Below, piece by piece: positions 17,776-49,663 of a stretch of 64,000 nt of DNA; the stretch's first letter is position 1; each line of letters opens with the position of its first letter. Under the pieces are notes generated by a model that worked only from the letters and a program-made list of their open reading frames with translations, was not told the origin of the DNA and did no database searches. The DNA lies in assembly GCA_024742605.1 (NCBI GenBank), contig JANSYC010000003.1:1-64000 (forward strand), given 5' to 3'. The translations under genes were made by a program, and so were the position numbers. Source of the DNA: Alphaproteobacteria bacterium (GTDB taxonomy: Bacteria; Pseudomonadota; Alphaproteobacteria; Thalassobaculales; Thalassobaculaceae).

Positions 17776-18677
17776 CGGTAATGCACCCGCTTCTGCAGCA
17801 GCCCGTACTGGATGAAGGTCAGCAGGGCGACGAAGACGAAGAACACCACGGTGATCGCCGAGGCGTAGCCGACCTTGAAATAGACGAAGCCCTCTCGGTA
17901 GAGCGCATAGACCAGGGTGTCCGAAGCGAAGGCTGGGCCACCGCCGGTCAGGGCCGCGACGGTCTCGAACACGCGGAAGCCCGCAGTCGCCGTTATCACC
18001 GCCACGAAAAGGGTGGTCGGGCCGAGCATCGGCCAGGTGACGGTCCAAAACCGGCTCCACGCGGAGGAGACGCCGTCGACCTCGGCAGCGTCGTAGAGAT
18101 GGCGCGGGATCACAGCCAGCCCTGCGAGGAACAGCACCATGTTGTAGCCGATGGTCTGCCAAATGCCGATCAGCGCCAGAGTGTAGATAACCAGCCCGCG
18201 GTCGGAGAACCAGGCCGGTGCCGGCAGGCCGAGCCTCACCAGGGTCATGTTAACGATGCCGATCGAGGGGTGCAGCATCATCTGCCATGCCAGGGCCATG
18301 GCTACCAGGGTCGCGGCGACCGGCAGGAAATAGGCGGCGCGCAGAAACCGCGAGAGCCCCGGTGACCACTGGGCCATCCCATGCAGGCGGGTGGCGACCA
18401 GCAAGGCCAGCAGGATCGAGGACGGGACCATGACCGCGACGTAGATCAGCGTGTTGGTGATCGCGCGCCGGCCGATCGGATCGGTGAACAGGGCCACATA
18501 CTGGTCGAAGCCGACGAAGGTGACGCTGCGATCGCCGAGTTGGTAGTCGGTGAAGGACAGCACGAAGACGATCAGCACCGGCACGAAGACAAGCGCTGCC
18601 AGCACCAGTACCGTCGGGCCGACCAGATAGAGGTCCGTCAGCCCTTCGCGCCATGCCCGAGAGATGGGGGCCATCAT
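17772..18677 (-). CDS. Carbohydrate ABC transporter permease (MalF/UgpA type)
   Basis: A 301-residue permease with six predicted membrane segments (for example LVGPTVLVLAALVFVPVLIV) and an EAA loop reading YDAAEVDGVSSAWSRFWTVT before WPMLGP. The conserved GGGPAFASDTLVY follows the loop, as in the MalF/UgpA class. The double ATG at 18677/18674 overlaps the ATPase stop (ATGA), so coupled translation is likely. It partners the permease at 16924-17775. Confidence 0.85.
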   Translation of the reverse strand: MMAPISRAWREGLTDLYLVGPTVLVLAALVFVPVLIVFVLSFTDYQLGDRSVTFVGFDQYVALFTDPIGRRAITNTLIYVAVMVPSSILLALLVATRLHGMAQWSPGLSRFLRAAYFLPVAATLVAMALAWQMMLHPSIGIVNMTLVRLGLPAPAWFSDRGLVIYTLALIGIWQTIGYNMVLFLAGLAVIPRHLYDAAEVDGVSSAWSRFWTVTWPMLGPTTLFVAVITATAGFRVFETVAALTGGGPAFASDTLVYALYREGFVYFKVGYASAITVVFFVFVALLTFIQYGLLQKRVHYR

Positions 18678-19831
18678 GTCCCCCCGCCCGGTGTGGGGTG
18701 GAGGCGCCCCCCGGTTTCCGCGTCGAACAGGTGAACGTCGGTGCTGCGGCAGGCCAGACCGACCCAGTCGCCGGGATTGAGCGACGACGCCTGTGCGTTC
18801 TGCAAGAGATCCACGGCGGTTTCCAGGCCGTCGAGGCGTAGGGTCACCATGGTGTCGCGGCCGTGATACTCCAGGCGCTCGACCCTGCCCTTGAGAAAGC
18901 CGTCGGCCGCGGCCGTGGCGCACCGCAGGTGTTCCGGGCGCAGCCCGACCGTGATCCGACCCCGGTGGTTCGGCAGGGCGAGACCGAGCCTGGTGAGCGG
19001 ATGATCCGCATCCCCGGCGGGCGACGGCAGATCGATCAGGTTCATCGGATGGGCGCCGATGAAGGCGGCGACCTCCCGGGCGGCCGGCCGCTCGTAGAGC
19101 TCCCTGGGCCGGCCGTCCTGGATGACCCGGCCCTCCAGCATCAGCAGCACCCGATCGGCCATTGTCATGGCCTCGGTCTGGTCGTGGGTGACATAGACAA
19201 ACGGTTTGCCGGAGCGGCGGTGCAGGGCGGAGAGTTCGGTCCGCATCTGGATGCGTAGCTTGGCGTCCAAGTTGGACAGCGGCTCGTCGAGCAGGAACAG
19301 CGCCGGGTCTCGCACCAGGGCGCGACCGACGGCCACCCGCTGCTGCTGGCCTCCCGACAAGGCGCCGGGCTTACGCTCCAGCAGTGGCTCGATCTCCAGC
19401 ATCGCCGCGATCCGCCGCACCCGCTTTCCGATATCCCGGAGCTTGTCCCGGGCACCGGGCAACAGCGCGCCCAGGAAGGGCACCCGTTCGGTCGGCTTGC
19501 ATTCCCGCATGACAAGCGGCAGGGCGATGTTCTCCGCGACGGTCAGGTGTGGGTAGAGCGCGTAGGACTGGAACACCATGGCGATGTTGCGCATCGCCGG
19601 CGTGTCGTCGGTGACATCCCGGCCGCCCATATGCACCGTTCCCGCGTTTGGCCGGTCGAGGCCGGCCATGAGACGCAGGGTTGTGGACTTGCCGCAGCCC
19701 GACGGGCCGAGAATCGCGGTGAACTCGCTAGGCGCTACGCCGAGCGACAGATCGTGCAGAATCCGATTGCCGCCAAGGGTCTGGCTGACATGGCGCAGGT
19801 CGAGAATGTGGCTGTCTCCGAGGGAGGCCAC
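18674..19831 (-). CDS. ABC transporter ATP-binding protein (MalK/UgpC type)
   Basis: A 385-residue ATPase of the carbohydrate-importer class. It has Walker A GPSGCGKST (about residue 44), signature LSGGQQQRVAVGRALV, Walker B LFLLDEP with D-loop SNLDAKLR, H-loop VTHDQTEAM, and a C-terminal TOBE/regulatory domain (GLRPEHLRC) typical of MalK and UgpC. There is a slightly longer than usual insert between the Q-loop and the signature (around ECKPTERVPFLGALLPGARD). It heads the transporter block and is followed by the two permeases and the binding protein. Confidence 0.88.
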   Translation of the reverse strand: MASLGDSHILDLRHVSQTLGGNRILHDLSLGVAPSEFTAILGPSGCGKSTTLRLMAGLDRPNAGTVHMGGRDVTDDTPAMRNIAMVFQSYALYPHLTVAENIALPLVMRECKPTERVPFLGALLPGARDKLRDIGKRVRRIAAMLEIEPLLERKPGALSGGQQQRVAVGRALVRDPALFLLDEPLSNLDAKLRIQMRTELSALHRRSGKPFVYVTHDQTEAMTMADRVLLMLEGRVIQDGRPRELYERPAAREVAAFIGAHPMNLIDLPSPAGDADHPLTRLGLALPNHRGRITVGLRPEHLRCATAAADGFLKGRVERLEYHGRDTMVTLRLDGLETAVDLLQNAQASSLNPGDWVGLACRSTDVHLFDAETGGRLHPTPGGGT

Positions 19832-19949
19832 GGCCGCTCCTTCCGACCGCCCGGCTGGGCGGCACTGACGAATATCGATGTAAGGTCTTGGTCATTTAGC
19901 ACAGGACGATGTAATATTTATGACGTGCCTGTGCGCCGGTCACGACTGG

Positions 19950-20603
19950 TCAATGGCCTCCGCTATGGGCGCTGCCGGAGAGCAGATGCTGCGCGACCAG
20001 CTCAACGGCGGCCTCCGCATCTTCCGCGCGGACCACGCCGGGCAAGGTGGCGGTGTCGTGCAGCGCGACCACCAGCCGACCGAAATGCAGGCCGAAGGCG
20101 ATTTCCGTCATCGTGCCGGTCGAGCCACCGACCGCTATCAGGGCGGTCGACGACCGGGCGATGACGACGTTGCGGGCCTCACGCAGGCCTGTCGCGATCG
20201 GCACCAGGATGTCTGGGTTGGCGGCATGCCATTCCGAGTCCGGCAGCAGTCCGATGGTCAGGCCGCCCGCTTGGCGGGCGCCGGCCGCTGCTGCCGCCAT
20301 CACCCCGGTCTTGCCTCCGCAGACCGTGGTCAGGCCGAGGCGGGCGAGAGCCGCTCCCACCGCGAAGGCCGCGCGCTGTTGTAGATCCGTCGCCTCGCGC
20401 GGGCCAATGACGCCGACCGGTAGAGGTCGGAGCGCTCCGACCTGGGCAAGGCGTGCCAGAGCATCCGCCGCGGTGGCGGGACTCAGGGAGTTTTTCGTCG
20501 CTGCTTGGGCGTCCTGCCAGGTCCAGGTCCATGGATCGAAAAGGCGGCCGGTCTCGTCGGACAACACGCCGTTACGCTCGTCATACAAATAAGGGGTCGT
20601 CAT
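19950..20603 (-). CDS. LOG-like/TIGR00725-type Rossmann protein
   Basis: A 217-residue protein with the fold signature of the lysine-decarboxylase-like LOG superfamily. A Rossmann start (VGVIGPREATDLQQRAAFAV) is followed by CGGKTGVMAAAAAGARQAGG and the loop AVGGSTGTMTEIAFGL, corresponding to the GG-x-GT-x-x-E active-site motif. LOG proteins hydrolyse nucleoside 5'-monophosphates, and the TIGR00725 subgroup is uncharacterised. It is transcribed towards the ABC operon 118 bp away and is divergent from the DeoR regulator. The ATG at 20603 was chosen because the upstream extension would run through the putative operator. Confidence 0.75.
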   Translation of the reverse strand: MTTPYLYDERNGVLSDETGRLFDPWTWTWQDAQAATKNSLSPATAADALARLAQVGALRPLPVGVIGPREATDLQQRAAFAVGAALARLGLTTVCGGKTGVMAAAAAGARQAGGLTIGLLPDSEWHAANPDILVPIATGLREARNVVIARSSTALIAVGGSTGTMTEIAFGLHFGRLVVALHDTATLPGVVRAEDAEAAVELVAQHLLSGSAHSGGH

Positions 20604-20626
20604 TGCTGGGCTCCGGCCTGAGAGTA

Positions 20627-20644
20627 CTGTAAGATAATTTACAG
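20627..20644. promoter_or_regulatory. Candidate DeoR operator between divergent genes
   Basis: CTGTAAGATAATTTACAG has perfect 6-bp arms (CTGTAA/TTACAG) around a 6-nt AT-rich centre. It occupies the 50-bp space between the LOG-like gene (start 20603) and the DeoR-family gene (start 20654). A dyad here could control both promoters. Confidence 0.55.
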
Positions 20645-20653
20645 ATAGCTTGG

Positions 20654-21388
20654 ATGAGTTACGGAAAGATGACAAACGTCACCATCGACCTGCCGGTCTC
20701 GGAGCGTCAGCGTGAGATTCTGTCCCTCGCTGAGTCCCAGGGCTTCGTTACCATCGAGAACCTGGCGCAGCGGTTCCAGGTCTCGGCTCAGACCGTGCGC
20801 CGCGATATCATCGCCCTGGACGAGGCGGGGCTGTTGCAGCGGTTCCATGGCGGCGCGGGCAGCAACGAGCGCGTCGAGACCATGCGGCTCGGCCACGCCC
20901 ACAAAAAGGATCTCAGCCCGGACGCGAAGCGACGGATCGCGGAGCGCGCGGCCGCCCTGGTGCATGATGGAGCCACCCTGTTCCTCGATGTCGGCACCAC
21001 GATCGAGGCGGCGGCGGAGGCCCTCAACCGGCGTAAGGCGTTGCGTATCTTCACGAACAATCTGCGGGCCGCCCTGCGGTTCGAACCGGCTCAACACGAC
21101 GTCCATGTGCTTGGCGGCACCCTTACCGGGCGCGACGGATCTCTTACGGGTGGTCGGGTGGTCACCGCACTATCCGGGTTGAATCTCGATTTCGCCCTGA
21201 TCGGCTGTTCCGGGATCGAACCCTCCGGACGGGTCATGGATTTCGACCTGAACAAGATCGAGGTGAAGAAGACCGCGATGCGGATCGCCAGAACCTCGCT
21301 ACTGCTTGCCGATGCCAGCAAACTAGGCCGCAGCGCGCTAGCCGAGATCGCAGCGCGCTCAGCTTTCGGTGAGGTGATCATCGAGTAA
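20654..21388 (+). CDS. DeoR/GlpR-family transcriptional regulator
   Basis: A 244-residue regulator. The N-terminal DeoR winged helix is clear (RQREILSLAESQGFVTIENL, then AQRFQVSAQTVRRDIIALDE and LLQRFHGGA). The C-terminal DeoR sensor domain has the sugar-phosphate isomerase-like fold, with FLDVGTTIEAAA and LGGTLTGRDGSLTGG. Such proteins sense phosphorylated sugars and repress neighbouring transport and catabolic operons. It is divergent from the LOG-like gene and the ABC operon, its probable targets. Two start codons (20654, 20669) are possible and neither has a strong ribosome-binding site. Confidence 0.85.
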   Translation: MSYGKMTNVTIDLPVSERQREILSLAESQGFVTIENLAQRFQVSAQTVRRDIIALDEAGLLQRFHGGAGSNERVETMRLGHAHKKDLSPDAKRRIAERAAALVHDGATLFLDVGTTIEAAAEALNRRKALRIFTNNLRAALRFEPAQHDVHVLGGTLTGRDGSLTGGRVVTALSGLNLDFALIGCSGIEPSGRVMDFDLNKIEVKKTAMRIARTSLLLADASKLGRSALAEIAARSAFGEVIIE

Positions 21389-21397
21389 GGGAAAGAA

Positions 21398-21480
21398 CTT
21401 GCTTACTCCAGCACCTGCATATAACCGCCGTCGACCCTCAGCGACCGGTCGCGCGGCACTGACATATGGGCGCTGTCCGC
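21398..21480 (-). pseudogene. Short-chain dehydrogenase C-terminal scrap in a 439-bp gap
   Basis: Between the DeoR and LysR genes no intact gene is seen. Minus-strand 21398-21480 encodes HMSVPRDRSLRVDGGYMQVL and ends in Glu-stop. RVDGGYMQVL resembles the C-terminal end of SDR-family oxidoreductases. The rest of such a gene is not recognisable to the right. An 82-codon plus-strand frame at 21466-21714 has no supporting feature. Confidence 0.4.
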
Positions 21481-21827
21481 CCAATCGCAGCCGTCGCGTA
21501 TTCTTCACCGTCAACCCTAGAGCCGTCGCTCGGGAACTTGAGCGAGGCGACGATTGCCAGCGAAGGCGACATCCGGGTCACATTTCGAACCGCACAGATC
21601 GCTGAATTTGACGCTTTCGTGGGAATCAGACGGTTTTTTGATACTCGCGGCAAGGATAGTTATCGGCAATTTGTGGAAACGAACGGCAACTCGCAACCCA
21701 AAGCGGACGTTTAGCTTTGACGCCAGTCGGCGATCGGAATTACGAACAATGAGCTTTAGCCAATGCTGCTGTAAGCAGGACTGGGGGCGACGTCACCAGA
21801 AAATCAAGACCGAGGGCCAGACATTCC

Positions 21828-42921: not shown

Positions 42922-44328
42922 CTATGCCGCCGTGCGTTCTGAGGCGCTCGGCCCGACCGGGGCTCCGTCCATATCGATGACCGGCCCATCGCTGCCGTGC
43001 TGACCGGACCCGTCGTGAGGGAGCGGAATCATAACTGTGACATGGGCCGGTGTGCTCCAGCTCAGTGTGTTGAAACCGTCGCAATTCCCACAGATCGCCG
43101 ACCACCGGTCCGAGATCGCGCCGCAGGTTCCACAGGTCCAACTTGGATCCCGGTCCATGGTGGCGGCCCGTTCCAGCCAAATACGGGTCGCTTTGACGTC
43201 GCCCTGGTCATGCTCCTCGAGCGCCGCCCACAATCGGCAGGCCCGCGGCGATAGCTCGGATTCGGAAACTGCCTCCAACTGAAGCCGCGCCTCGGCGTAG
43301 TGCTCGGAGGCCAGGCCCGCAGCCGCGACCATCAATTTGCTTTCGACATGATCGGGGGCCTTGCGTGCGAGTTCGGTCACCCGGCGATAGGTTGCGTGCG
43401 GCGTCTCGTCCGGAACCAGGGCGATGAAAGCTTCGGCCAGGTCGGGATGGGCGACCCGGGCCCAATTGTCCTCGACCAACCGGTTCGCCCGCTTCGGTTT
43501 GCCGGCTGCCATCTCCGCGTGCACCTTTTCGATCAAGGCGGGGACGAAGTCCGGTGCGCTGTCGACGGCGTTGCCGGCATGGCTGATCGCGGCATCGGAA
43601 TCGCCCTGCTCGATCGCGTCCCGCGCCCGCTCCACCAGGATGGCGGATCGGTGCCCCAAGGCGACGTCTTCCGGCAGAATCTTGGCGCGGACGGCTTCGT
43701 AAACGGCTCTCTGCGCGTCAACCCATCGCCGGGCCCGGGCCAGGAGGAAGACCCGCGTGGTCGCAACATAGGCTGCGTCCGGACGCAGTTTAAACGCCTC
43801 TTCCGCCAGTTCCAGCGCATGCTCGTCGTCGCCGCGCGAGACCGCCTGCCGGAGTAGGCCTGAGAGGCCGATGAAAGCGGTCTCCGGGTTCTCCCGCAGG
43901 GCCGCAAAATACCGTGCGGCTGCGGCGTGGTCGCCGGCAAGCGCCGCGGCCTGAGCCGAGAGCAGCCGGGTCAGCTCCGGGTCCTGCAACTGTTGATCGG
44001 CACGCCTGGCCTGACGGCGGGCTTCCTCGGCGTCTCCGGCGGCCACTGCGGCAAGGCCGAGCGTGAGCGCGCGGTAGCCCCGGTGCTTGCGTTTGTCGGC
44101 CCGGCTTCGGAACCAGGACCCTGGTGCGGACAAGATGGCATCCAGCATCCGCCAGCCCCGGGCGGTCAGGAAGATCGCCACCACCACGAGGAGCGCGAAC
44201 AGCCCGAAATTGGTCTGCAATTCCCAGCCCAACCAATTGACCGTGACTGATCCGGGGTTCTCGACCAGCCAGATCGCTATCCCGACGAAGATCGCGAGCT
44301 TGATGAAGAAAAAGATCGTGCGTCCCAT
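42922..44328 (-). CDS. hemY: HemY-like TPR membrane protein with zinc ribbon
   Basis: A 468-residue inner-membrane protein. Two membrane helices (FFFIKLAIFVGIAIWLVENP and FGLFALLVVVAIFLTARGW) form the HemY N-terminal domain. TPR-like helical repeats follow, with a C-terminal rubredoxin-like zinc ribbon (CGTCGAISDRWSAICGNCDG). HemY accompanies tetrapyrrole synthesis genes in proteobacteria, though its exact reaction is unsettled. The gene starts 3 bp after the stop of the hemD-Mic60 gene, so it is the third member of the hemC operon. Confidence 0.88.
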   Translation of the reverse strand: MGRTIFFFIKLAIFVGIAIWLVENPGSVTVNWLGWELQTNFGLFALLVVVAIFLTARGWRMLDAILSAPGSWFRSRADKRKHRGYRALTLGLAAVAAGDAEEARRQARRADQQLQDPELTRLLSAQAAALAGDHAAAARYFAALRENPETAFIGLSGLLRQAVSRGDDEHALELAEEAFKLRPDAAYVATTRVFLLARARRWVDAQRAVYEAVRAKILPEDVALGHRSAILVERARDAIEQGDSDAAISHAGNAVDSAPDFVPALIEKVHAEMAAGKPKRANRLVEDNWARVAHPDLAEAFIALVPDETPHATYRRVTELARKAPDHVESKLMVAAAGLASEHYAEARLQLEAVSESELSPRACRLWAALEEHDQGDVKATRIWLERAATMDRDPSWTCGTCGAISDRWSAICGNCDGFNTLSWSTPAHVTVMIPLPHDGSGQHGSDGPVIDMDGAPVGPSASERTAA

Positions 44329-44331
44329 CGA

Positions 44332-46758
44332 TCAGCCCCCGGAAATGTTGGCGATCGCCGCCGATTGCAGCACACCGACAGCTTGATCCACGGCGAGCCG
44401 GTCCTTCGCATCCGCAAGCCACCGGGCCGCCGCTTGTGCAGGAACGCCCTCCAGGCGGGACAGCGTATCCACCGCGGCCTGCAGATCGCCAGCGCGGACC
44501 GCGTTCTCGGCAGAGGTGACCAGTTCGTCCAAGCTGTCGCCGCCGGTCGAGGTGGTCCGACGGACGCTCACAAGTGCTGCCACATTTCGGAGCGCCGCGC
44601 CGACGAACCCCTCATTGATACCAACCAGGTCCGCGTCCAGGATGTCGGTCGCCACCCTTGGATAGGTGTCGCGCAGGACGGTGCGCGACGGCACGCCGCC
44701 GGAAAATGTCTTCAGGGTGTCGAGTGCGGATGCCACGTCGGCACCCGCATCGCCACCCGCCACCGCCGCAGCTTCGAGCTCGGCGGAGAACCCGCCCGAC
44801 CGGCTGCTCGCCAGGGCCAGTTGGTTGGCGGCGATCAGAAACGCCCCGGCCTGCTCGCTGTCGCTGCGGGTGTCGGCGATCGCGGTGCTGAGTTTGCCGA
44901 CCTCCGCCTTGATCCCGTCGAGCTTCGCGGACAACGTCCCCCGAGCTGCGGCCTCCTCCTGGAGGGCCCGGTCCAGCCGACCGGACAGTTCGGACACCGT
45001 TCCGGACAGTTCCGCAAAGTCCTCGGGCGAGACCGCGCGCGCGGGTGTCTTGGTCTCGAGCGCCTCCAGGCGTGTCCCCATGTCGGCGAGTTTACTGGAA
45101 AGTTCGGCGGCCAGCGGCCCGATCCCGTTGCCGTCCGAATCCCCACCCAGATTGTCTCGCAGGATGGCGAGTTCATCCCCGAAGGTCGAAAGCGTGCGCT
45201 GGGTATCGTCGATCTGGGCCTGCAACCCGGTCACCTGACCAGTAACATCACCGTCGGGGGCCGCTGAAGCAGGGGCTGCCTTCAACGCTGCGATGTCCTG
45301 CGCCATCGTGTCCAAGCGTTCAGTGAGTGCGTCAATATCGCTGTCCGACGCGGCGGGCGCGGTCGGTTCTGGGGCCGGTTCCGGCTCGGCCTTTGGCGCC
45401 GGTGCTGCAACTTCCGCATCTCTGGTGGCTGTCGGCGTCGCCTGCGTCGCCTGAGCACTGTCGGGGACCGCCGGTGCGGCCGTGTCCGAGGCTGCTGCGG
45501 CCTGTTCTGGGGCCTTGTCTGCGGCGGTCTCGACCGGGGGCAGTGTCACGCCCACCTGTTCGGCGTAGGGGAGCGCGTGCTGGCGCCATACCGGATAGGT
45601 GGCGTACAGACCGACGCCGATCAGCGCGATCAGGATCAGGGTCACCAGGAACCGGCCGCCGCCGCTGCTTTTCACGGTCGTCGCGGTTGGGCGGGTGGTG
45701 TCCGCGTCGGAGCTGTCCTCGCGCACCACATCCTCGGTCCGATCGTTGCCGTCGCCCCCGATCAGGCTGTCGTCGCCGCTTTCCGCTGCGACCGTATCTG
45801 CACCCCAGGGGCCCGAGCCGCTATCGTCCGCGCCGGTAGCGGACTCCGCATCGATCTTGTCCGGATCGGCGCCGGTCACGCTGCTGTTGTCCTTCTCGGT
45901 CATACGACCGTCTCCTTCTTCATCATGTCCGTCCCGAGCGGTTCGGGTTGGGGCTGGGGGATCGTCCCCGATCAAGGCCGTCAGCAGCGCAACTCTTGTC
46001 GGCGCCTCGGCGGCGGTCACCGAAGACCACCGGGCCGGATCGCCGGAAACCTCAGCTTGCGCCAACGCGGTTTCCTCGACCAGCGCGTCGGCGATCGATG
46101 CGCTGAAACAAACCGCCCGCCATCGAGTTATATGGGGCAGCCCCAGCGTTTCGCCCAGCACCCTAACAAAGTGACGGGCGCTGCGGGGAGAGAAAAACAC
46201 GATATCGGCGTCCGTCGTGGCCCGCAGACGGGTGCATAGATCCGCGTCGAACCGCTCCACCTCCACGGCGGCATAGGCGACCCGCCGTTCGACCGAGATC
46301 GTGCTGCCGGAAAGCGCGGCGCTCAGATCAACCCGAATGTCCCGGCCGCTTAGCCAAAGCAGATGTCTGCTGGCGCTTCCGAGTTCCGCGCGCAGGTCTT
46401 CAACCAGATCGGCGGCGGTCCCTGCGCCGTCCCGCACATCGGTGAACCCCGCCGCCCGCGCCCGCTGTCCCGTTGCTGTCCCAACAGCCCAGACCGTCGC
46501 GTCGCGCCGGATCTGCAATCTGGCCAGCGCATCGGCCCCGTTGGCGCTGGTGACGATCATACCGTCCAGATCTTTCGGCACCGAGGGATCGAAGTCGACC
46601 GGCCGGATCTCCAGCACAGGCGCCAGGATGACCTCGCGGCCGCGTGCCCGAAGCGTGTCTGCAAGCACCCGCGCGTCCTCGAGGGGACGGGTGATCACGA
46701 CCGGCACCGCTACGATCGGTTTCGTGCCGGCTGGCCCCCTATGGTCGGGCCGCGCCAT
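44332..46758 (-). CDS. hemD: Uroporphyrinogen-III synthase (HemD) fused in frame to a Mic60/mitofilin-like protein
   Basis: A single 808-residue reading frame. Residues about 14-270 are HemD (VVITRPLEDARVLADTLRAR, IVTSANGADALARL, FFSPRSARHFVRVL), which closes hydroxymethylbilane to uroporphyrinogen III. After an acidic linker comes a membrane helix (GGGRFLVTLILIALIGVGLY), an Ala/Pro-rich stretch, a coiled coil and the mitofilin C-terminal domain (QAGAFLIAANQLALASSRSG onwards, COG4223-like). In most alphaproteobacteria these are two adjacent genes. Here no stop separates them, but an internal ATG at 45903 has a GGAG ribosome-binding site, so a separate Mic60 could also be made. It begins 3 bp after the hemC stop. 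Confidence 0.8.
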   Translation of the reverse strand: MARPDHRGPAGTKPIVAVPVVITRPLEDARVLADTLRARGREVILAPVLEIRPVDFDPSVPKDLDGMIVTSANGADALARLQIRRDATVWAVGTATGQRARAAGFTDVRDGAGTAADLVEDLRAELGSASRHLLWLSGRDIRVDLSAALSGSTISVERRVAYAAVEVERFDADLCTRLRATTDADIVFFSPRSARHFVRVLGETLGLPHITRWRAVCFSASIADALVEETALAQAEVSGDPARWSSVTAAEAPTRVALLTALIGDDPPAPTRTARDGHDEEGDGRMTEKDNSSVTGADPDKIDAESATGADDSGSGPWGADTVAAESGDDSLIGGDGNDRTEDVVREDSSDADTTRPTATTVKSSGGGRFLVTLILIALIGVGLYATYPVWRQHALPYAEQVGVTLPPVETAADKAPEQAAAASDTAAPAVPDSAQATQATPTATRDAEVAAPAPKAEPEPAPEPTAPAASDSDIDALTERLDTMAQDIAALKAAPASAAPDGDVTGQVTGLQAQIDDTQRTLSTFGDELAILRDNLGGDSDGNGIGPLAAELSSKLADMGTRLEALETKTPARAVSPEDFAELSGTVSELSGRLDRALQEEAAARGTLSAKLDGIKAEVGKLSTAIADTRSDSEQAGAFLIAANQLALASSRSGGFSAELEAAAVAGGDAGADVASALDTLKTFSGGVPSRTVLRDTYPRVATDILDADLVGINEGFVGAALRNVAALVSVRRTTSTGGDSLDELVTSAENAVRAGDLQAAVDTLSRLEGVPAQAAARWLADAKDRLAVDQAVGVLQSAAIANISGG

Positions 46759-46761
46759 GGA

Positions 46762-47728
46762 TCAGACCGCGAGGAAGTCGCGGCCGCATTTCGCCAGGAT
46801 CGCTTCCCCGATCGTGGTTCCCAGGTCCTCCGGGCGCTGCGGGTCGCCGGAACCGGCATCGTCGAACCGGTGCTGGCCGTCGAGCGATAGCACGGCGCCT
46901 TCCAGTATCAGTTTTCCATCCACCAGCCGGGCATGGCCTGAGATCGGTGTCCGGCAGGATCCGTCGAGCGCCCGCAGCATGGCCCGTTCGGCCCGAACAA
47001 CGGTGTGGCTGTCCGGATGATCGAGAGTCGACACCCAGTCCCGGATCTGCGAGTCGCGCGCGGAAGCCTCGCCGTCGCGGGTCTGGATGGCGATTGCGCC
47101 CTGGGCCACCGGCGGCGGCATCTCGTCCCGTTCAAGGATTTTGGTGATAACATCCGCCTTGCCAAGCCGTTTCAGCCCGCAGGTCGCCAGCAGGGTGGCC
47201 ATGGCATCGCCCTCTGCCAGCTTGCGCAACCTCGTGTCTACATTGCCTCGGAACAGCACCACGTCCAGATCGGGCCGCCGGTTCAGCAGCAAGGCGCGCC
47301 GCCGCACGGACGCGGTCCCGAATCGCGCGCCCTTCGGCAAATCCTCGATGGCGCTCACATGGGGAGAGACAAAGGCGTCGCGGGGATCCTCGCGCGGCAG
47401 CACGGCGGTGATCGTCGTGCCCTCCGCCACGCTGGTCTCCATATCCTTCATGGAATGGATGGCAACATCGATCCGCCCGCTGAGCAGTGCGTCCTCGACC
47501 TCCTTGATGAACAGGCCCTTGCCGCCCACGTCGGCCAGGGGTCGGTCGCGGACCATGTCCCCGGTCGAGGTGATTTTCTCGATCCCGATCGCACCCGGGG
47601 CACCCAGCTCCGGGAAGGCCGCGATCAGCCGGTCCCTGGTCTCGTGGGTTTGCGCTAGGGCCAGTAGGGACCCGCGAGACCCCAGGATGACCTTGGGCGT
47701 TTCTGAAGACGAACTGTTTGCGCTCATG
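46762..47728 (-). CDS. hemC: Hydroxymethylbilane synthase (porphobilinogen deaminase)
   Basis: HemC joins four porphobilinogen units into hydroxymethylbilane. The 321-residue product shows KVILGSRGSLLALAQTHETR near its start, then GGKGLFIKEVEDALLSGRID and VAIHSMKDMETSVAEG. The cofactor-binding Cys lies in RALDGSCRTPISGHA. The ATG at 47728 matches the usual family start. An upstream extension would overlap tsaD. It heads the hemC-hemD/Mic60-hemY operon and is divergent from tsaD, an arrangement common in alphaproteobacteria. Confidence 0.93.
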
Positions 47729-47753
47729 GGTCTTTCGTGTAGACGGCGGTTGA

Positions 47754-48860
47754 ATGATCGTTGACGTGGCGATCCTAAAGAGGAAACGCACGAGAGTGAA
47801 ACCCATCCTGGGCATCGAGACCAGTTGTGACGAAACGGCGGCTTCCGTGGTGGCCGCGGATCGCACAATTCTGTCCAATGTCGTGCTCAGCCAGCTCGAC
47901 GAGCACCGGGCATTCGGCGGGGTGGTTCCGGAGATCGCGGCGCGGGCGCATCTGGATCATCTGGACCGCATCGTTGCTCAGGCGCTGGGCGATGCTGGGC
48001 TGAAGCTGGGCGATCTCTCGGCGATCGCCGCCACCGCCGGGCCGGGGCTGATCGGCGGCGTGCTGGTGGGGGCGACCACGGCAAAGGCCCTGGCCATGGT
48101 TGCGGGGCTGCCGTTTCTGGCGATCAATCATCTTGAAGGTCATGCATTGACGGCGCGGCTGACCGACAATGTGGCCTACCCCTATCTGCTGCTGCTGGTC
48201 TCGGGCGGGCACTGCCAGGTGCTGGCGGTGGAAGGTGTCGGGCGCTACCGGCGTCTGGGCACCACGATCGACGACGCTGCGGGCGAGGCCTTCGACAAGA
48301 CAGCCAAGCTGATGGGACTTGGCTATCCCGGTGGACCCGCGTTGGAGCGGGCGGCAAAGGCAGGTGATTCCAAGCGGTTCGCCCTGCCGCGTCCGATGCT
48401 GGGACGGCCTGGATGCGATTTCTCGTTCTCCGGTCTGAAGACCGCCGTGCGCCGTCGGGTCGATGAACTGGGCGAGGCGCTCGATCCCCAGGCCACGGCC
48501 GATCTCGCGGCCTGTTTTCAGGCGGCGGTGGCGGCCTCACTGGTCGACCGGTCGCGCCATGCGATCGAGATGTTCGAGGTCGACCATGGTGCGGGCCATG
48601 CCTTTGTGGTCGCGGGTGGTGTGGCCGCGAATCAGAGCCTGCGCGCTGCCCTGTCCGAACTGGCCGGGAGCCGGGGGATGCCGTTCATCGCCCCGCCGAT
48701 GGCTCTTTGCACCGACAACGCCGCGATGATCGCCTGGGCCGGGCACGAGCGGATGGCGGCAGACCCACAGGGTGACGGCCTCGACTTCAAGCCCCGCCCC
48801 CGCTGGCCACTCGATCCCGGCGCTGCCAGATCCATTGGTGCAGGTGCCGTGAAGGCGTAG
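47754..48860 (+). CDS. tsaD: tRNA N6-threonylcarbamoyladenosine transferase TsaD
   Basis: TsaD transfers the threonylcarbamoyl group to A37 of ANN-decoding tRNAs, working with TsaB, TsaE and TsaC. Family landmarks are [16 protein letters not shown] at the N-terminus, the metal-binding [41 protein letters not shown] and [12 protein letters not shown]. The length is normal. The ATG at 47754 gives a 14-residue extra N-terminus. GTG at 47796 (VKPILGIE) could be the true start, with GAGGA before it. Divergent from hemC. Confidence 0.93.
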
Positions 48861-48944
48861 GCCCGTCCGCCGCGTCTTCCCCGTCGCGATCGGTTGGGGT
48901 AGCGTCCGGTCCTCGGATCAATCATGACTTTTGGGGAGAAACCC

Positions 48945-49238
48945 GTGCTGTTTTCCATTGTCTGCGTCGACAAGCCGAACTCGGTCCAGCTGCGCATGGA
49001 CACCCGCCCGGAGCATGTGGAGCACCTGAAGGCCCATGCCGACCGTCTGTTGCTGGCGGGCCCAAATCTGGCCGAGGACGGGACCACGCCGATCGGCTCG
49101 ATCCTGGTGTTCCAGGCGGAGACCGCTGCCGAGGCCAAGGCGTTCGCGGACGCCGATCCCTATACCAAGGCCGGCCTGTTCGAGAGTGTGACCATCAAGG
49201 GCTTCCGCAAGGTCCTTGTTAAGCCGGAGCTCGAATAG
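48945..49238 (+). CDS. YciI-family protein
   Basis: A 97-residue ferredoxin-like alpha-beta protein of the YciI/muconolactone-isomerase type: FSIVCVDKPNSVQLRMDTRP, EHVEHLKAHADRLLLAGP, IGSILVFQAETAAEAKAFAD and DPYTKAGLFESVTIKGF. The family has a conserved His-Asp pair with unclear catalytic role. GTG at 48945 was chosen because GGGGAG lies 6 nt before it. The in-frame ATG at 48924 has no such signal. It ends 2 bp before the EVE-domain gene, so the two are probably co-transcribed with tsaD. Confidence 0.82.
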   Translation: MLFSIVCVDKPNSVQLRMDTRPEHVEHLKAHADRLLLAGPNLAEDGTTPIGSILVFQAETAAEAKAFADADPYTKAGLFESVTIKGFRKVLVKPELE

Positions 49239-49240
49239 TC

Positions 49241-49663
49241 ATGGCGTATTGGCTGTTCAAGTCGGAGCCGGGCACCTGGTCCTGGGATGATCAGGTCCGG
49301 AAGGGCGATGAGGGCGAGGGCTGGGACGGGGTCCGGAACTATCAGGCCTCGAACAACATGAAGGCCATGAAGGTCGGTGATCGCGGGTTCTTCTATCACT
49401 CGGTCAACGAGAAGCAGATCGTCGGCATCGTCGAGGTGATCGAGGAATATCATCCTGATCCGACCGACGCCTCTGCCCGGTTCGGGATGGTCACGGTCAA
49501 GGCGGTCAAGCCGGTCAAGCGGCCTGTCACCCTGGCCGAGGTCAAGGCGACCGAGGCCCTGGCGGAGTTTCCGCTGATCCGCCAGTCGCGGCTTTCGGTG
49601 GTGCCGGTGACCGAGGATCAATGGAAACTGATCTGCAAGATGGCGGAGACTGACCCGGCGTGA
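49241..49663 (+). CDS. EVE domain-containing protein
   Basis: A 140-residue protein that is essentially one EVE (PUA-like) domain: AYWLFKSEPGTWSWDDQVRK, GWDGVRNYQASNNMKAMKVG and DRGFFYHSVNEKQIVGIVEV. EVE domains bind modified nucleobases in DNA or RNA. The stop overlaps the next start (GTGA). Association with YciI and tsaD-type genes is common in alphaproteobacteria. Confidence 0.88.
   Translation: MAYWLFKSEPGTWSWDDQVRKGDEGEGWDGVRNYQASNNMKAMKVGDRGFFYHSVNEKQIVGIVEVIEEYHPDPTDASARFGMVTVKAVKPVKRPVTLAEVKATEALAEFPLIRQSRLSVVPVTEDQWKLICKMAETDPA

Follow-up and report, generated by a model that had tools for sequence, protein, structure and literature searches.

A HemD-Mic60 reading frame one base away from two genes, and recurrent alphaproteobacterial fusions with an internal mic60 start

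Introduction

When two neighbouring genes of an operon appear joined in one reading frame, is the join an established protein architecture, a recent mutation or an error in the sequence, and does the downstream protein still arise on its own? The hemD-mic60 locus of the window, the whole stretch of 64,000 nucleotides of alphaproteobacterial DNA analysed here, raises all of these questions. The mitochondrial crista organiser has its bacterial relative in the membrane-shaping protein Mic60, and the reasons for the place of the mic60 gene in a heme operon are, to our knowledge, not understood. In Alphaproteobacteria, an operon of hemC, hemD, mic60 (IMMP/mitofilin) and hemY has been described, divergent from tsaD-(gpsA)-yciI-EVE (PMC7641849).

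Results

In the assembly sequence, hemD and mic60 form a single uninterrupted frame on the minus strand, running from the ATG at 46758-46756 to the TGA at 44334-44332 and translating into 808 amino acids (808 codons; 44332-46758 with the stop codon counted in). Pfam searches of the translation found two domains within this unbroken frame, both above their curated cut-offs: the HemD domain (HEM4, PF02602) at residues 32-228 (46075-46665, minus strand; E = 1.8e-29, 103 vs. 27.5 bits, profile positions 3-212 of 231) and the Mitofilin C-terminal domain (PF09731) at residues 686-801 (44356-44703, minus strand; E = 9.9e-14, 51.6 vs. 27.4 bits, profile positions 495-613 of 614). The N-terminal membrane anchor of Mic60 is present as a single strong hydrophobic segment from about residue 370, the hydropathy maximum (2.2) marking a transmembrane helix at approximately residues 370-390 (45589-45651, minus strand), and the disordered linker between HemD and this helix is about 110 residues long. 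The original prediction of one 808-codon HemD-Mic60 frame is borne out by the assembly, and the order of the domains agrees with its placing of HemD ahead of the membrane helix, where the enzyme would be expected on the cytoplasmic side. The HemD of the fused gene is the sole HemD in the genome; if the assembly is right, the enzyme must work within the fusion, its activity being presumed from the single copy.

The frame also contains a well-formed internal start for mic60. Eight nucleotides upstream of the ATG at 45901-45903 (minus strand) lies a strong Shine-Dalgarno sequence, AAGGAG (45912-45917, minus strand), and the GGAG site and ATG at 45903 that had been predicted to allow a separate Mic60 were thus both seen. 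Initiation there would give a protein of 523 residues (44332-45903, minus strand), in line with the separate mic60 of the congener described below (L033). In the window's other frame, the TGA at 45902-45900 is the HemD stop that the congener uses.

The surrounding operon is compact. Upstream, hemC, encoding porphobilinogen deaminase (46762-47868, minus strand; Pfam Porphobil_deam, E = 9e-71), ends in a TGA followed by TCC and the hemD ATG; its real start is probably downstream of the listed TTG. Downstream, the ATG of hemY (42922-44328, minus strand) comes three bases past the mic60 stop, and its product is, by Pfam, a TPR protein with a HemY_N domain and not a protoporphyrinogen oxidase. The order is hemC, hemD-mic60, hemY, with both remaining junctions three-base gaps, and tsaD, yciI and an EVE-domain gene adjoin the operon in head-to-head orientation. 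At 47754-49663, yciI and the EVE-domain gene directly follow tsaD, and gpsA, reported elsewhere between tsaD and yciI, is absent there. The source genome encodes a second protein with a mitofilin C terminus (407 amino acids with a membrane helix; Pfam E = 1.6e-10), whose gene stands solitary beside a ParA-like gene at G000:C56:130508-131101 (L169 1435-2658, minus strand).

The only other genome of the genus compared, G001, is a metagenome-assembled genome (MAG) of an uncultured Rhodospirillaceae bacterium, and in this congener the genes are separate: they lie in different frames, and the HemD TGA overlaps the mic60 ATG as ATGA. From the linker through the mic60 start, the DNA of the two genomes is nearly identical save for one base added in the window at about position 45961, which in the alignment shifts the minus-strand HemD tail into the mic60 frame; the added base adjoins a run of five Cs. 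The congener HemD ends in GDRPRTQPDPIGTDMMKKETVA and its stop, and the window without the extra base would read GDDPQPQPEPLGTDMMKKETVV with the identical overlapping stop. A check of the 45.9-46.0 kb stretch for a frameshift, suggested with the original prediction, has a divided outcome, as the fused frame stands but differs from the congener by one base; likewise, a close relative with separate genes and an identical linker, proposed as the case against the fusion, exists in part, the G001 linker being almost identical.

The rest of the family sides with the congener. The junction could be read in 27 other members of the family, and in every one hemD and mic60 are separate and the HemD stop precedes mic60, so that conservation of the fusion in close relatives was found neither in the congener nor in these 27. 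As the rest of the family has separate genes, parsimony indicates that the fused state arose in the window's lineage or is an error. The ATGA-type overlap of the congener also occurs in four other families. Among separate pairs, mic60 lies in the frame of hemD in 27 of 44 (counts from related genomes that are not independent), and in many of these only one stop separates the two genes, so that losing it would fuse them.

We then surveyed alphaproteobacterial families beyond the window's own in which hemD and mic60 were found side by side. A single-frame HemD-Mic60 gene occurs in 8 of approximately 25 such families (G063, G070, G072, G076, G079, G087, G088 and G091); Pfam confirmed HEM4 in all eight and Mitofilin above its cut-off in seven, the G070 match falling below it. 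Counted apart is G055 (L088), where HemD and a membrane helix share a frame and a Mitofilin domain was undetected. For G018, G011 and G075, the open-frame listing suggested fusions, but the stops show separate genes, and they were rejected. On a tree of HemD and Mic60, the fused or separate state changes about seven times, a rough figure given the short alignment and branch support left unused. The G072 family is fused in all 16 genomes with a match, spanning seven genera; the G063 family is mixed, with both fused and separate genes. In G063 itself, the fused gene is present in three identical copies (L192, L204 and L214, one inverted; G063:C1 85-2652, 3192-5759 and 4596528-4599095) close to the termini of a chromosome assembled as one contig, a pattern that resembles an artefact of assembly at the contig ends.

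Were a fusion simply to replace both genes, the old mic60 start would be expected to decay. Among the nine other fused frames (G055 included), however, eight carry a Shine-Dalgarno-like motif together with an in-frame ATG or GTG between HemD and the helix, where codon shuffles give an expectation of 2.6 (P ~ 6e-5, a value to be taken only as a guide since the motif set and the HemD-helix search interval were our choice). In the G072 family, 10 of the 16 genomes have the internal start 35-36 residues past the HemD domain, amid a variable peptide, and 6 have no start there; the Shine-Dalgarno pairing of this start is much stronger than that of other in-frame ATGs (Mann-Whitney P = 6e-7, with independence overstated because the genomes are related). 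Many fused genes may thus still produce free Mic60, and some lineages may have given it up.

Discussion

Whether the one-base event behind the window's own fusion is real is uncertain: it is either a recent insertion or a sequencing or assembly error. We consider it probable that, in a coupled hemC-hemD-mic60-hemY operon, a one-base insertion at about 45961 in the tail of hemD removed the HemD stop and created the fusion. According to this model, the four genes would be translationally coupled and, as in the congener, ribosomes ending hemD could restart on mic60 at the ATGA. A single base inserted in the disordered hemD tail would abolish the TGA overlapping the mic60 ATG; hemD ribosomes would then run on into mic60 and make a protein of HemD, linker, transmembrane helix and Mic60, in which the helix would tether a presumably cytoplasmic HemD to the inner membrane through the disordered linker. 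With the mic60 Shine-Dalgarno sequence and the ATG at 45903 intact, new initiation could supply free Mic60 in addition, and the likely output of the window would be two products, HemD-Mic60 and free Mic60. Stable fusions in other families indicate that such a protein is tolerated and the architecture viable.

The most serious alternative, which we regard as unlikely though far from negligible, is that the contig is one base too long and the organism has the arrangement of the congener, with the TGA overlapping the mic60 ATG. The difference is a single base beside the C5 run, the other frame yields GDDPQPQPEPLGTDMMKKETVV and a stop where the congener has GDRPRTQPDPIGTDMMKKETVA and a stop, all 27 of the other readable family members keep the genes separate, and the assembly is a draft in 187 contigs; the same draft is, however, rated 100% complete. 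Over about 52 kb of sequence and approximately 42 gene pairs, alignment of the window's genome to the congener showed no further frameshift inside a real gene: the pairs match to the last codon, the few exceptions being contig ends or overlapping frames, and every other indel that changes a frame lies between genes, at a gene edge or in overlapping frames of low identity, or is compensated. Indel errors are thus not abundant in the assembly; natural frameshifts in gene tails are uncommon too, and the absence of others favours a real insertion only mildly. By our judgement, a real insertion is about twice as probable as an error, and we infer that it exists in the organism. Within the aligned genomes, the stretch at 18639-21500 (an ABC transporter ATPase, a SLOG protein and a DeoR regulator) matches a contig of the congener MAG at 99.9% identity, against 81-91% for the other DNA common to the two, and reflects either DNA transferred recently or a contig foreign to one of the two assemblies.

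That the fusion is older and was selected in the genus as a membrane tether, the congener MAG having lost it or carrying an error, is improbable: fusions recur in eight sampled families and are fixed in one (16 of 16), but the other genomes of the window's family are separate, which by parsimony places the change in the window's lineage, and the congener overlap is of the clean ATGA type shared with four other families. The settled, purposeful tether of the original prediction thus finds no support, with the congener separate by one base and no other readable family member fused.

The window's own lesson is narrow: a single base separates one gene from two. It is the wider pattern that merits further study, namely the recurrence of fusions in which an internal mic60 start is kept. 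We put forward, tentatively and as a possibility short of even odds, that Alphaproteobacteria have a recurrent two-product design, in which one frame would yield a membrane-tethered heme enzyme fused to the crista organiser and a conserved internal start would yield free Mic60; the window would then show a case that arose only recently. Repeated fusion of HemD with the internal start kept suggests joint action at the membrane, with free Mic60 still needed. In the literature searched, which did not extend to the main papers on Mic60 evolution, looking for HemD-Mic60 or HemD-HemX fusions yielded only the operon paper (PMC7641849) and no description of recurrent HemD-Mic60 fusions with a kept internal start, and the novelty of the recurrent pattern is not established.

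Compared with the published operon (PMC7641849), the window has the same gene order, orientation and head-to-head tsaD, yciI and EVE-domain gene, but differs in having hemD and mic60 in one frame. The single-frame genes of other families resemble that of the window in their HEM4 domain, linker, membrane helix, Mitofilin C terminus and, usually, Shine-Dalgarno-led internal start; the G072-family fusion is nevertheless fixed across seven genera, whereas that of the window is either a new one-base change or an error, in a family that otherwise keeps the two genes apart. HemD-HemX fusions are annotated in some beta- and gammaproteobacteria, and there HemD is likewise joined to an adjacently encoded membrane protein, although the partner is HemX and not Mic60.
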